Assembly: GCF_004168285.1 (NCBI RefSeq)
Contig: NZ_SEWF01000043.1
Coordinates: forward strand, 1 to 48,520
Direction of reading: 5' to 3'
Source of the DNA: Emticicia agri
GTDB lineage: Bacteria; Bacteroidota; Bacteroidia; Cytophagales; Spirosomataceae
DNA: 48,520 nucleotides
The notes below the pieces were generated by a model. The model was not told the DNA's origin, ran no database searches, and saw only the letters and a program-made list of their open reading frames with translations. Position numbers and translations under genes: made by a program. Each line of letters begins with the position of its first letter. Position 1 is the first letter of the stretch. Of the stretch, positions 37,298 through 46,475 are shown in pieces.

Positions 37298-37335
37298 AAT
37301 CTACTTGTTTGGTAGAGTATATATACTTTACTTTG
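37298..37335 (+). promoter_or_regulatory. Rrf2-type operator and -7 element of the sterol desaturase gene
   Basis: The palindrome AATCTACTTG-T-TTGGTAGAGT (37298-37318) equals the operator of the Rrf2 gene at 41373 in 17 of 21 positions. TTTG inside it (37308-37311) could serve as the -33 element. TACTTTG at 37329-37335 is one base short of the -7 consensus. The operator end and the -7-like element are 10 bases apart. Confidence 0.6.
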
Positions 37336-37512
37336 TGACAGAAACAAAAACAAACGATTTATACGCTTTAGTTTTTGTTCTATTTATGGTCGTGTGTCTT
37401 AGTTGGAAGACAAAGAGTCTCATAAACTCTTTTAAGTGGTTCGACACCACTCACGACAACTATCATTTTTTGAACCATACAGAACAACTTGAATTATTAA
37501 TCCTCACTGATT

Positions 37513-38736
37513 ATGGTAATCAATTATTTAGCATTAGCTGTTCCGTTTTTTTTGTTTTTCATCTGGCTTGAATACTATATAGCCCAAAAGCAGGGGAAAT
37601 CTTATTTTAAGTTTAACAGCTCTATTGCCAATATTAACGTGGGCATAGCAGAGCGTTTAATTGATTTGTTTACAGCAGGCGGGTTCTATTTCTTTTATGA
37701 TTATCTGCATACACATTTTGCCATTTTTGATATTCAGCCCAGCATATTATTGTGGATAGCCTTACTGTTAGCTACCGATTTTCTGTGGTACTGGTATCAT
37801 CGCTTCGGGCATGAGGTAAATCTTTTCTGGGGGTTTCATGTAGTGCATCACCAGAGCGAAGAGTTTAATTATACAGCCGCTACCCGAATTACCATCTTTC
37901 AGTCGGTGGTTCGTACGGCATTCTGGTCAGTTTTGCCTATCATAGGTTTCCCTGCTGAAATGATTACCACTATTTTACTGGTGCATGGCATTTATCCATT
38001 CTTTACGCATACACGTCTAATCGGGAAGTTGGGAATCTTAGAGTATATCATGGTTACTCCCTCGCACCATCGGGTACATCATGCCAGTAATGAGGAGTAT
38101 CTTGATAAGAATTTTGGTGATATGTTTATTATATGGGATAAGCTGTTTGGCACTTTTGCCGAAGAAAAAGAAGAACCTACTTATGGACTTACCAAGCAAT
38201 TAGGAAGTTACAGTTTTTTATGGCAGCATTTTCATTTTCTGGTCGAAATAGGATATGCTGCCAAAACAGAGAAAGGATTATTGAATAAACTAAAGGTAAT
38301 ATTTGGCCGACCGTCTTCATTTAGCCCGGATATGCGCCATAAGGCCGAGAAAAAGTTTTTGGCTGTCAGAAAAGTAAAAGTGCACACTACTAAATTCCGT
38401 ACTTATGTTGTTGCCCAGATAGCCTTTATTATCATAGCCTTATTTCTGTTATTACTATTTGAGCATTATATCCCGCTGTTTCTTCAGGTAATGGTTGCCT
38501 TGTTTATACTAATAACGCTTATCAACTGCGGAGCAATTATGGAACAAAGAAGGTGGGTGTTTTATTTAGAATTTGTGAGGGCAAGTCTGGTAACTATTAC
38601 TACTTATTACTATTTCCCAAGTCCGACTTTAACAGGCATGTTAATCCTGTTACTGATTACAGGTATAGCTTATTTTTCGAGCTTACAAAAGCAATATTTA
38701 AGGCTGATATACGGCAAAAGAAAATTTTTTGAATAG
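37513..38736 (+). CDS. Sterol desaturase / fatty acid hydroxylase family membrane protein
   Basis: This is a di-iron membrane oxygenase. The 407-residue protein has several membrane segments and the family histidine boxes: WYWYHRFGHE, then FHVVHHQSEEFNYT, and PSHHRVHHASNEEY, together enough ligands for two irons. After the catalytic part (to about residue 270) four more membrane segments follow (from about residue 300), as in alkylglycerol-monooxygenase-type relatives. The lipid substrate is unknown. The gene has an operator similar to those of the Rrf2 gene and two redoxin genes, so it may respond to the same redox signal. A perfect hairpin follows it. Confidence 0.88.
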   Translation: MVINYLALAVPFFLFFIWLEYYIAQKQGKSYFKFNSSIANINVGIAERLIDLFTAGGFYFFYDYLHTHFAIFDIQPSILLWIALLLATDFLWYWYHRFGHEVNLFWGFHVVHHQSEEFNYTAATRITIFQSVVRTAFWSVLPIIGFPAEMITTILLVHGIYPFFTHTRLIGKLGILEYIMVTPSHHRVHHASNEEYLDKNFGDMFIIWDKLFGTFAEEKEEPTYGLTKQLGSYSFLWQHFHFLVEIGYAAKTEKGLLNKLKVIFGRPSSFSPDMRHKAEKKFLAVRKVKVHTTKFRTYVVAQIAFIIIALFLLLLFEHYIPLFLQVMVALFILITLINCGAIMEQRRWVFYLEFVRASLVTITTYYYFPSPTLTGMLILLLITGIAYFSSLQKQYLRLIYGKRKFFE

Positions 38737-38777
38737 CAAATGTTTTATTCATCGTAATAGGTTATGGTTGTCAATTA

Positions 38778-38800
38778 GCTTGGTTAGTCTCTAACCAAGC
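38778..38800 (+). terminator. Hairpin after the sterol desaturase gene
   Basis: A perfect 10-bp stem GCTTGGTTAG / CTAACCAAGC with loop TCT is followed by ACAATTTTCT. It is 42 bases after the stop codon, and 108 bases before metY. Confidence 0.7.
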
Positions 38801-38907
38801 ACAATTTTCTGACCGATAGATAACATACGTAGCAAAATTAGTTGTTACCATTCTTTTATCATTAAATTTAGGTTTTAAATAAATATTCACAAAACCATTT
38901 TAAAATT

Positions 38908-45053: not shown

Positions 45054-45077
45054 CTTCATCTAAAACCAGAGAAAATT

Positions 45078-46319
45078 ATGAGATTTTTTACAGCATTGAT
45101 GGCTACAGGCTTCTCTATAGCCGGTTTGACAGCACATTCTCAAACCAATCCGAAAAATGGTAACTGGCGTGGTACTTTCAATTTAGCCAATGGTCAGGAA
45201 TCTCCATTCAATTTTGAACTGCAGGGTAAAACAGCTTATCTGCTTAATGGCACTGAACGTTTTGAGTTAAGTGGTATCAGACAAACGAAAGATTCGCTAT
45301 TTATTCCGGTGGATATTTATGATGCGGTTATAGCAGCAAAGATTGTCAGCCCGACAAGTCTCTCGGGAGTTTTCAAAAAATTCAATACAGCTAAACCCGA
45401 TAAGGGAATTGAATTCAGTGCTGAATATGGCAAGAAGTATCGCTTCTTTGAAACACCAGGCGCAGCCGATGTAAGTCTGCATGGCAACTGGGATGTGGTC
45501 ATTGGGGAGGGTACTAACAAGATTGTCGGGGTATTCTCCCAGTTCGGCAATAAATTAACAGGTACTTTTCTGACTACTACCGGAGATTATCGTTATTATG
45601 AAGGAACCGTGCAAGGCAATGATTTTTACTTGTCAGCTTTCAGCGGGTCAAGCCCTACGTTAATCAAAGGAAAAGTTACAGGTAACGATTTATCGGGAGA
45701 ATATATCAATGTTCGAGGTGCCGTACCTATTAAAGGTGTTCGTAATGATGAAGCAACTTTACCCGATGCCTATACCTTGACAACTATTAAAGAAGGAACA
45801 ACTTTTGATTTTACTTTCCCTGATGCTTTTACAGGAAAACCGGTGTCCTTAAAAGACCCCAAATATAAGGGCAAAGCTGTGATAGTAACTATTTTAGGAA
45901 GCTGGTGCCCTAACTGTCTGGATGAGGCAACTTTTCTCGCTCCCTGGTACAAAGCTAATCGTAAAAGAGGAGTAGAAATTATCGGATTGGCCTTTGAGCG
46001 TAAAAATGATCCAGAGTTTGCCAAAACCCGTCTTGAAGTATTGAAAAAACGCTTTGGTATTGAGTATGATATTTTGTTTGCAGGTTTGGCAGATAAAGAA
46101 TTTGCTTCAAAAGCTTTACCAGCATTAAGTTCAGTTTTATCTTTCCCGACTACCATATTGATTGATAAAGAAGGAAAAGTCAGTAAAATTCACACCGGAT
46201 ATACAGGCCCGGCTACAGGCAAATATTATGAAGAATTTGTAAAAGAATTTAACCATGATATAGATGAAGTTTTAGGTACTGCTACTACTGTCAATAAGCC
46301 AAAACAAGCTGAGAGGTAA
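45078..46319 (+). CDS. TlpA-like thiol-disulfide oxidoreductase with N-terminal beta domain
   Basis: The start at 45078 gives a signal peptide (MRFFTALMATGFSIAGLTAHSQ); the frame is open 27 bases upstream, across the promoter. Residues about 25-225 are beta-rich (GNWRGTFNLANGQESPFNFEL, a second unit from GNWDVVIGEGTNKI), unlike the DUF4369 domain often fused to TlpA in Bacteroidota. The C-terminal thioredoxin domain has the active site SWCPNC (Cys277, Cys280) and the cis-proline in SFPTTILID. It is probably periplasmic, reducing disulfides. An Rrf2-type palindrome precedes the promoter and a hairpin follows the gene. Confidence 0.87.
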   Translation: MRFFTALMATGFSIAGLTAHSQTNPKNGNWRGTFNLANGQESPFNFELQGKTAYLLNGTERFELSGIRQTKDSLFIPVDIYDAVIAAKIVSPTSLSGVFKKFNTAKPDKGIEFSAEYGKKYRFFETPGAADVSLHGNWDVVIGEGTNKIVGVFSQFGNKLTGTFLTTTGDYRYYEGTVQGNDFYLSAFSGSSPTLIKGKVTGNDLSGEYINVRGAVPIKGVRNDEATLPDAYTLTTIKEGTTFDFTFPDAFTGKPVSLKDPKYKGKAVIVTILGSWCPNCLDEATFLAPWYKANRKRGVEIIGLAFERKNDPEFAKTRLEVLKKRFGIEYDILFAGLADKEFASKALPALSSVLSFPTTILIDKEGKVSKIHTGYTGPATGKYYEEFVKEFNHDIDEVLGTATTVNKPKQAER

Positions 46320-46324
46320 ATTAA

Positions 46325-46361
46325 ACTTTGAGCAGGTATGAGAACCATGCCTGCTCAAAGT
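46325..46361 (+). terminator. Hairpin after the TlpA-like gene
   Basis: A 12-bp perfect stem ACTTTGAGCAGG / CCTGCTCAAAGT continues inward by a wobble and three more pairs to a 5-base loop. No T run follows. Confidence 0.7.
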
Positions 46362-46430
46362 AATCAGAAAAATACATAAATCACCATAATTTGAGGGAGG
46401 TTTTCTGAGTAGAAATGAATCTCAAAAATT

Positions 46431-46475
46431 AATCTACTAAAATAATAGACTATATAGATTAATTGCTTATATTTG
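46431..46475 (+). promoter_or_regulatory. Rrf2-type operator and -7 element of the cysteine-free redoxin gene
   Basis: AATCTACTAA-A-ATAATAGACT (46431-46451) is identical to the 41373 operator through its left half and centre and less similar on the right (16 of 21 overall). The -7 element TATATTTG at 46468-46475 has the same 16-base distance as at the Rrf2 gene. Confidence 0.6.

Follow-up and report, generated by a model that had tools for sequence, protein, structure and literature searches.

A palindrome at four Emticicia agri promoters as the probable operator of a CymR-like sulfur-assimilation regulon run by Rrf2 regulators in Bacteroidota

The stretch of DNA considered here is contig NZ_SEWF01000043.1 of Emticicia agri (NCBI RefSeq assembly GCF_004168285.1), which, at its full length of 48,520 bases, we will call the window. 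Four of its promoters carry a palindrome of the type AATCTAC-N7-GTAGATT, and one of the genes behind them encodes a regulator of the Rrf2 family. Here, we will argue that this palindrome is the operator of a CymR-like regulon of sulfur assimilation, run by an Rrf2 clade of Bacteroidota, a reading to which sequence comparison leads us to give a probability of about 0.8. The genes of the window look like a local outpost of that wider regulon. Where genomes, contigs and loci have to be told apart, they are referred to by G, C and L numbers. The features are as follows.

37298..37318, + strand: operator AATCTACTTGTTTGGTAGAGT, before the probable unit of fatty-acid hydroxylase and MetY; the site recurs, unchanged or as a variant, ahead of the orthologue in L048, L116 and L049, and of MetY in L120
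37329, + strand: imperfect -7 element TACTTTG, 10 bases past the 37298 operator
37513..38736, + strand: fatty-acid hydroxylase/sterol-desaturase family protein, 407 amino acids (Pfam FA_hydroxylase, 4.7e-29)
38908..40194, + strand: MetY, O-acetylhomoserine/O-acetylserine sulfhydrylase (TIGR01326, 650.5 bits; cut-off 495.1)
40278..41177, + strand: DUF1684 protein (Pfam PF07920)
41373..41393, + strand: operator AATCTACTAAATTGGTAGATT with perfectly palindromic arms, before rrf2; retained in L047 and L048
41410..41417, + strand: -7 element TATATTTG of rrf2, 16 bases past the operator
41473..41907, + strand: Rrf2-family regulator, paralog A, 144 amino acids, with Cys92, Cys101, Cys104 and Cys110 (Pfam Rrf2, 2.8e-33)
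42000..43421, + strand: CrtO/phytoene-desaturase-like oxidoreductase dependent on flavin adenine dinucleotide, by family models; also 3' of rrf2 in L047-L049 and probably transcribed after it
43647..44906, + strand: YeiH-family putative sulfate exporter (Pfam PF03601, 1.4e-49; TIGR00698, 92.1 bits, below the cut-off of 232.6)
45014..45034, + strand: operator AATCTATTAACTTTATAGATT, before the TlpA-like gene; retained in L047, L089 and L092
45046..45053, + strand: -7 element TATATTTG, 11 bases past the 45014 operator
45078..46319, + strand: TlpA-like redoxin protein, 413 amino acids from ATG, with a WCPNC motif (Pfam Redoxin/AhpC-TSA)
46431..46451, + strand: operator AATCTACTAAAATAATAGACT plus a further half-site downstream, before the cysteine-free redoxin gene; retained in L047, L048 (1 mismatch) and L120
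46468..46475, + strand: -7 element TATATTTG, 16 bases past the 46431 operator
46525..47166, + strand: cysteine-free AhpC/TSA-fold protein, 213 amino acids, with no C in its translation (Pfam AhpC-TSA, 2e-12)

An earlier note on this DNA had located the four palindromes correctly, and its description of their surroundings holds as well. The sites at 37298 and 41373 are identical in 17 of 21 positions, the gaps between operator and -7 element and the form of the -7 elements agree with those listed, and the four genes behind the sites belong to the families that it had named. Because MetY and the YeiH-family protein lie among the window genes, a sulfur theme suggests itself. The 37298 site probably drives the hydroxylase and MetY as one unit, since in G007, which has no hydroxylase at this place, a site lies approximately 300 bases before MetY, and MetY has a near-match of its own in L049 (2 mismatches), as well as a site in L120. 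The sole NCBIfam match of the hydroxylase is OlsE at 70.9 bits, below the cut-off of 475. Two window genes that have no adjoining site here do have one in relatives: the YeiH gene in L049 (1 mismatch) and DUF1684 relatives in G008 and G010 (66-67% identical).

At up to two mismatches, the window holds exactly four matches to AATCTAC-N7-GTAGATT, and these are the four promoter sites (1 mismatch at 37298-37318, 0 at 41373-41393, 2 at 45014-45034 and 2 at 46431-46451). By comparison, 400 dinucleotide shuffles of the window averaged 0.22 matches, with a maximum of 2 and none reaching four; at the three-mismatch level there were 8 matches against 3.33 expected. The window contains 13 perfect 7-N7-7 palindromes, of which this one is the richest in near copies (4). 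One should bear in mind that the shuffle test is partly circular, the consensus having been derived from the very sites under test. The tests that are independent of it are the exact counts in genus and family, the regions upstream of sulfite reductase, the class loci and the class whole genomes. In the E. agri genome as a whole, a closely similar pattern at up to two mismatches stands at background (37/43 against 35/32 in the control); therefore, we relied on exact and one-mismatch sites and on tests anchored to particular genes. A genome-wide claim from two-mismatch sites was rejected for that reason, and most of the two-mismatch sites inspected, several of them inside genes, were disregarded.

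Some operators (window 46452-46460; L047:6250; L049:10511) have an extra half-site 9 bases downstream, giving overlapping palindromes, and these half-sites may accommodate a second dimer.

The clearest evidence comes from relatives. Across 11 genomes of the genus, the exact palindrome occurs 31 times forward and 24 times in reverse, against 1 and 2 for the reversed pattern, with no exact match in the scans of G001 and G002. The genes near these sites, which were read around most though not all of the exact matches, include a sulfite reductase-TauE-CysH-CysD operon (G005, with a shorter view in G010), YeeE/YedE, MetY, TauE, TonB and SusC receptors, YceI, DUF1684 and others; among the families downstream are NIR_SIR, TauE, two PAPS_reduct proteins (CysH/CysD-like) and Sulf_transp. 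Every one of the 11 genus genomes has the palindrome 33-38 bases upstream of the sulfite reductase start, at up to two mismatches. When the 27 best-scoring of 58 genomes from other genera of the family were added to these 11, the 19-base core was found at up to one mismatch in 28/38 sulfite reductase upstream regions, as against 1% of shuffled copies of these regions, and the regions from outside the genus contributed 21/27. Over 150 family genomes the exact palindrome gave 173 forward and 177 reverse matches against 10 and 10 for the reversed control (approximately 17-fold), and it was present in 107 genomes against 12; 43/150 had none.

The position of the sites relative to the promoter is also regular. 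We compiled a hand-picked list of 51 sites that lie before a gene and are oriented toward it, some with one to three mismatches; it leaves out two exact intragenic genus sites, G007:C1:293279 and some one-mismatch sites in L090/L091. In this list, TAnnTTTG follows within 40 bases downstream of the operator at 36/51 sites, with gaps of 5 to 16, and occurs on the other side at 3/51. At the sulfite reductase promoters of the genus, it stands 5 bases past the palindrome in 11/11. The operator is thus placed so that a protein bound there would obstruct the promoter, which fits repression. Its form is that of an Rrf2-type operator, two half-sites around a central 7-bp spacer (AATCTAY-N7-RTAGATT). 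This agrees with the NsrR-hmpA1 complex, since there, on a 23-bp operator fragment, the central 7 bp receive no base-specific contacts (PMC9338935).

Which Rrf2 protein reads these sites is less straightforward. The E. agri genome encodes a second one, paralog B (G000:C6:59434), 64% identical to the window's paralog A, and both are clear members of the family (Pfam PF02082, 115.3 bits for A and 120.5 for B; cut-off 30). Paralog B is found in 11/11 genus genomes, and the A type in 3/11 plus the CRIBPO record. Relatives of A are 96% identical in Emticicia sp. C21, 94% in 21SJ11W-3 and 81% in CRIBPO. In C21 and 21SJ11W-3, sites are retained before the hydroxylase, rrf2, TlpA and redoxin genes, so far as these fall within the stretch examined; in CRIBPO, sites with one to two mismatches precede the hydroxylase, YeiH and MetY genes, and none was found before rrf2 in the locus examined. 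Four further genomes (G003, G005, G009 and G010) have other local Rrf2 paralogs, 62-63% identical to A. In an alignment of 34 proteins, selected from 65 distinct sequences (two of them distant), the recognition regions of the paralogs are closely similar, and Cys92, 101, 104 and 110 are invariant, with the spacing C-x8-C-x2-C-x5-C. In the predicted structure of A (mean predicted local distance difference test score, pLDDT, 82), the four-cysteine stretch is of low confidence (pLDDT 55-64).

The most serious competing explanation is that paralog B alone reads the operators and that the window's Rrf2 is a target with another job or another binding site, which we regard as possible, with the odds against it. 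Apart from the universal presence of B, four genomes in which it is the only close Rrf2 (G001, G002, G007 and G008) retain the sulfite reductase site, so that B is perhaps the main reader; G007 retains further exact sites as well, its sites including those before MetY, a redoxin gene, YeeE/YedE and an SMP-30-like gene. Paralog A, moreover, sits on a separate branch with the other local paralogs. Yet A shares the recognition region, has a perfect operator of its own and is encoded amid the sites, and G003, G009 and G010 likewise have other local paralogs whose genes lie near sites, though this does not hold for G005 (L088, none at up to one mismatch). Our tentative view is that B serves the core operators, with A as a local second reader that is itself under operator control. 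The claim that the window's Rrf2 controls the four sites stands in part: they look like operators, are associated with promoters, are conserved and go with this Rrf2 clade, but the window's own Rrf2 is perhaps not their sole or actual regulator.

A different sulfur-metabolism transcription factor could also act through the palindrome, with rrf2 as only one of its targets. We consider this unlikely, although paralog B itself has no operator in front of it at any genus locus, because the operator tracks the presence of Rrf2 across the class. Close Rrf2 proteins are found in 59/61 family genomes, the other two genomes being 82 and 63% complete. Among 119 genomes of the class, in which Rrf2-clade members were counted at E <= 6e-32, 32 have the sulfite reductase, 27 the Rrf2 clade, 18 both and 78 neither (p = 6e-7, with related rows); G240, where both genes are broken fragments, and G259, with a weak sulfite reductase match, were scored as lacking. 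In 8/17 class genomes that have both (own genome excluded), a distance of 149 to 5,392 bases separates the two genes; a regulator gene near sulfite reductase is found in other families too, and the interval in L253 is occupied by CysN-, CysD- and CysH-like genes. In the intergenic DNA of 40 class loci, there were 11 operator-like sites in 34.2 kb with Rrf2 and 0 in 16.6 kb without, and the reversed-pattern control gave 0 in both sets. By locus, 6/17 sulfite reductase loci with Rrf2 have an operator-like site against 0/14 without (p = 0.02). In whole class genomes, ARTCTAYN7RTAGAYT matched in 10/26 with Rrf2 and 13/92 without, tallied by hand (p = 0.01, a rough value as rows are related), and the reversed control in 3/26 and 11/92; the palindrome is thus less common where Rrf2 is lacking, whereas an equal frequency, according to the earlier note, would have refuted its reading. 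The 7-N7-7 geometry also suits a solved Rrf2-DNA complex (PMC9338935).

In a distant family (L261:4142), a one-mismatch operator-like site separates an Rrf2 gene from the two genes that come next, of which the second is peroxiredoxin-like by eye; this echoes the peroxiredoxin site of E. agri described below.

The earlier note had proposed a local regulon of four promoters linking a lipid-modifying enzyme to two redoxin-fold proteins. In its favor, four of the eight places in the E. agri genome within one mismatch of the operator are inside the window. The others, however, include a site 33 bases before a YeeE/YedE pair (the first protein being a Sulf_transp member), one 44 bases before a 1-Cys peroxiredoxin gene and one before the gene of a 284-residue protein (92% identity to a G006 protein whose match to SMP-30 is borderline); the operator also precedes sulfite reductase, and it recurs throughout the family. 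Strictly local control by the window's Rrf2 is therefore very improbable, and the common theme is not lipid and redoxins but sulfur assimilation (sulfite reductase, YeeE/YedE, MetY and TauE). One further place, C3:20046 (1 mismatch), was set aside as lying at a gene border. That the sites are a mere promoter element or chance AT-rich palindromes is scarcely credible: they do lie just upstream of -7 elements, and two-mismatch matches are at background in E. agri, but the sites are symmetric, are retained in certain promoters only and far exceed the shuffle and reversed-pattern controls, on which grounds chance was rejected.

Several observations weigh against a sulfur regulon run by the Rrf2 clade and should be kept in mind. 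No site at up to one mismatch precedes the paralog B gene in 11/11 genus loci, and the sulfite reductase site of E. agri itself has 2 mismatches. The 10/38 upstream regions outside the count above have 2 mismatches (nine) or 3 (one), a clear -7 element is absent at 15/51 sites, and two exact genus sites fall within genes (L123 and L128). Some operator-bearing genes (SMP-30-like, YceI, DUF1684 and TonB) have no obvious sulfur role. At the level of the class, 9/27 genomes with the Rrf2 clade are without this sulfite reductase and 14/32 with the reductase are without the clade, the p-values overstate independence as the sampled genomes are related, the 6/17 Rrf2-bearing sulfite reductase loci with an operator-like site are a minority, some of these sites being kilobases off, and 16/26 Rrf2-bearing genomes have no genome-wide match to ARTCTAYN7RTAGAYT. 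Since so few Rrf2-bearing loci and genomes match outside the family, the operator has perhaps drifted there, or the link is looser.

Among characterized regulators, paralog A is most like CymR (YrzC) of Bacillus and Staphylococcus. The closest solved structure by sequence is B. subtilis CymR (2y75, 2.8e-16), which is also the closest fold to the predicted model (Foldseek 1.5e-10, TM 0.79/0.88), followed by T. potens IscR and S. aureus CymR and, further down, RsrR, NsrR and E. coli IscR. Once the general Rrf2 superfamily is set aside, CymR is the best-scoring named model, though A is below the cut-off for both the CymR equivalog (NF047409, 73.5 bits; cut-off 195) and the IscR equivalog (TIGR02010, 54.1 bits; cut-off 207.55). 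Like those of CymR, the putative target genes of A belong to sulfur metabolism. Unlike A, B. subtilis CymR lacks most of the four-cysteine stretch in the alignment, and it belongs to a different phylum; the likeness concerns the protein and its probable target genes. The operator code here may be peculiar to the Bacteroidota clade and distinct from that of CymR. The iron-sulfur Rrf2 regulators (IscR, NsrR and RirA) have the same fold and carry cysteines in a similar general region, in a three-cysteine pattern, and the operator resembles that of NsrR-hmpA1 in size and in its central 7 bp; A differs in its four invariant cysteines, in their spacing and in its putative sulfur targets. A regulator of the IscR/RirA kind was considered and dropped, as model scores and target genes did not fit. 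In proteobacteria, a comparable job, covering assimilatory sulfate reduction and the uptake of sulfur sources, is done by CysB and other LysR-type regulators; CysB is of an unrelated protein family and is an activator with a different mechanism. As to CymR itself, it acts in B. subtilis in complex with CysK (PMC9338935), and its operator sequence was not found in the available part of PMC2869319.

The sites, their conservation and geometry, the gene content and the co-occurrence with Rrf2 are read directly from the DNA; binding, repression, effector and the assignment of paralogs to sites are what we infer in the following scheme. An Rrf2 dimer would bind the two AATCTAY half-sites, leaving 7 bases between them uncontacted, and would then lie just upstream of the -7 element, over the -33 region. 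RNA polymerase would be blocked when sulfur is plentiful, whether as cysteine, sulfide or another reduced form. Sulfur shortage or a changed thiol state would release the protein from the operator, and sulfite reductase, sulfate-activation enzymes, thiosulfate/sulfite transporters, sulfhydrylase, outer-membrane receptors and redoxins would be made. Sensing would most likely involve Cys92/101/104/110, through an iron-sulfur or metal site or through thiol oxidation or persulfidation. Paralog A would be a lineage-specific second regulator with its own operator, and the universal paralog B would probably use the same operator.

The place of the hydroxylase deserves a separate comment. It adjoins Rrf2 paralogs in the examined loci of 6/11 genus genomes (G000, G003, G004, G005, G006 and G010); in the case of G006, it lies next to MetY on a different contig. 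In another family, a relative 39% identical to it (L244:2327-3364) and sulfite reductase are approximately 3 kb apart. In G010 and G003 (L089 and L092), a related sulfur cluster also encodes TauE, a chromate transporter and another membrane protein of hydroxylase-like type, which shares 29% identity with the window hydroxylase over 189 residues. A bolder idea, which we think rather doubtful, is that of a master sulfur switch of Bacteroidota, built on a CymR-like Rrf2 with a four-cysteine cluster or persulfide sensor, with an A/B duplication in Emticicia-like genomes sharing one operator, and with a reach extending past cysteine synthesis to outer-membrane receptors of sulfur compounds and a hydroxylase of the fatty-acid/ornithine-lipid type, such that sulfur shortage would remodel membrane lipids (e.g., from sulfonolipids to sulfur-free ones). 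The link to sulfonolipids is speculation, since a literature search on sulfonolipid hydroxylases yielded nothing.

The window has two further features. A repeat resembling a miniature inverted-repeat transposable element, of about 165 bp (43455-43632), separates the CrtO-like gene from the YeiH gene; in the same genome, with 40 out of 72 candidates scored, 46 matches to it are listed, and 34 of these span most of its length. The open reading frame at 47494-48483, near the contig end, encodes what we take to be a relative of IS110-type transposases.

In the open-access literature, judged from titles and abstracts and with most subscription journals outside its coverage, we found no account of Bacteroidota sulfur assimilation controlled by an Rrf2 regulon. 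If the reading proposed here holds, it would provide a large phylum with a candidate regulator and operator for the assimilation of sulfate, sulfite and thiosulfate. The target lists would hint at functions for orphan genes such as YeiH, DUF1684, the cysteine-free redoxin, the hydroxylase and SusC/TonB receptors, and the duplicated regulators, which apparently share one operator, would offer a testable case of regulon splitting.

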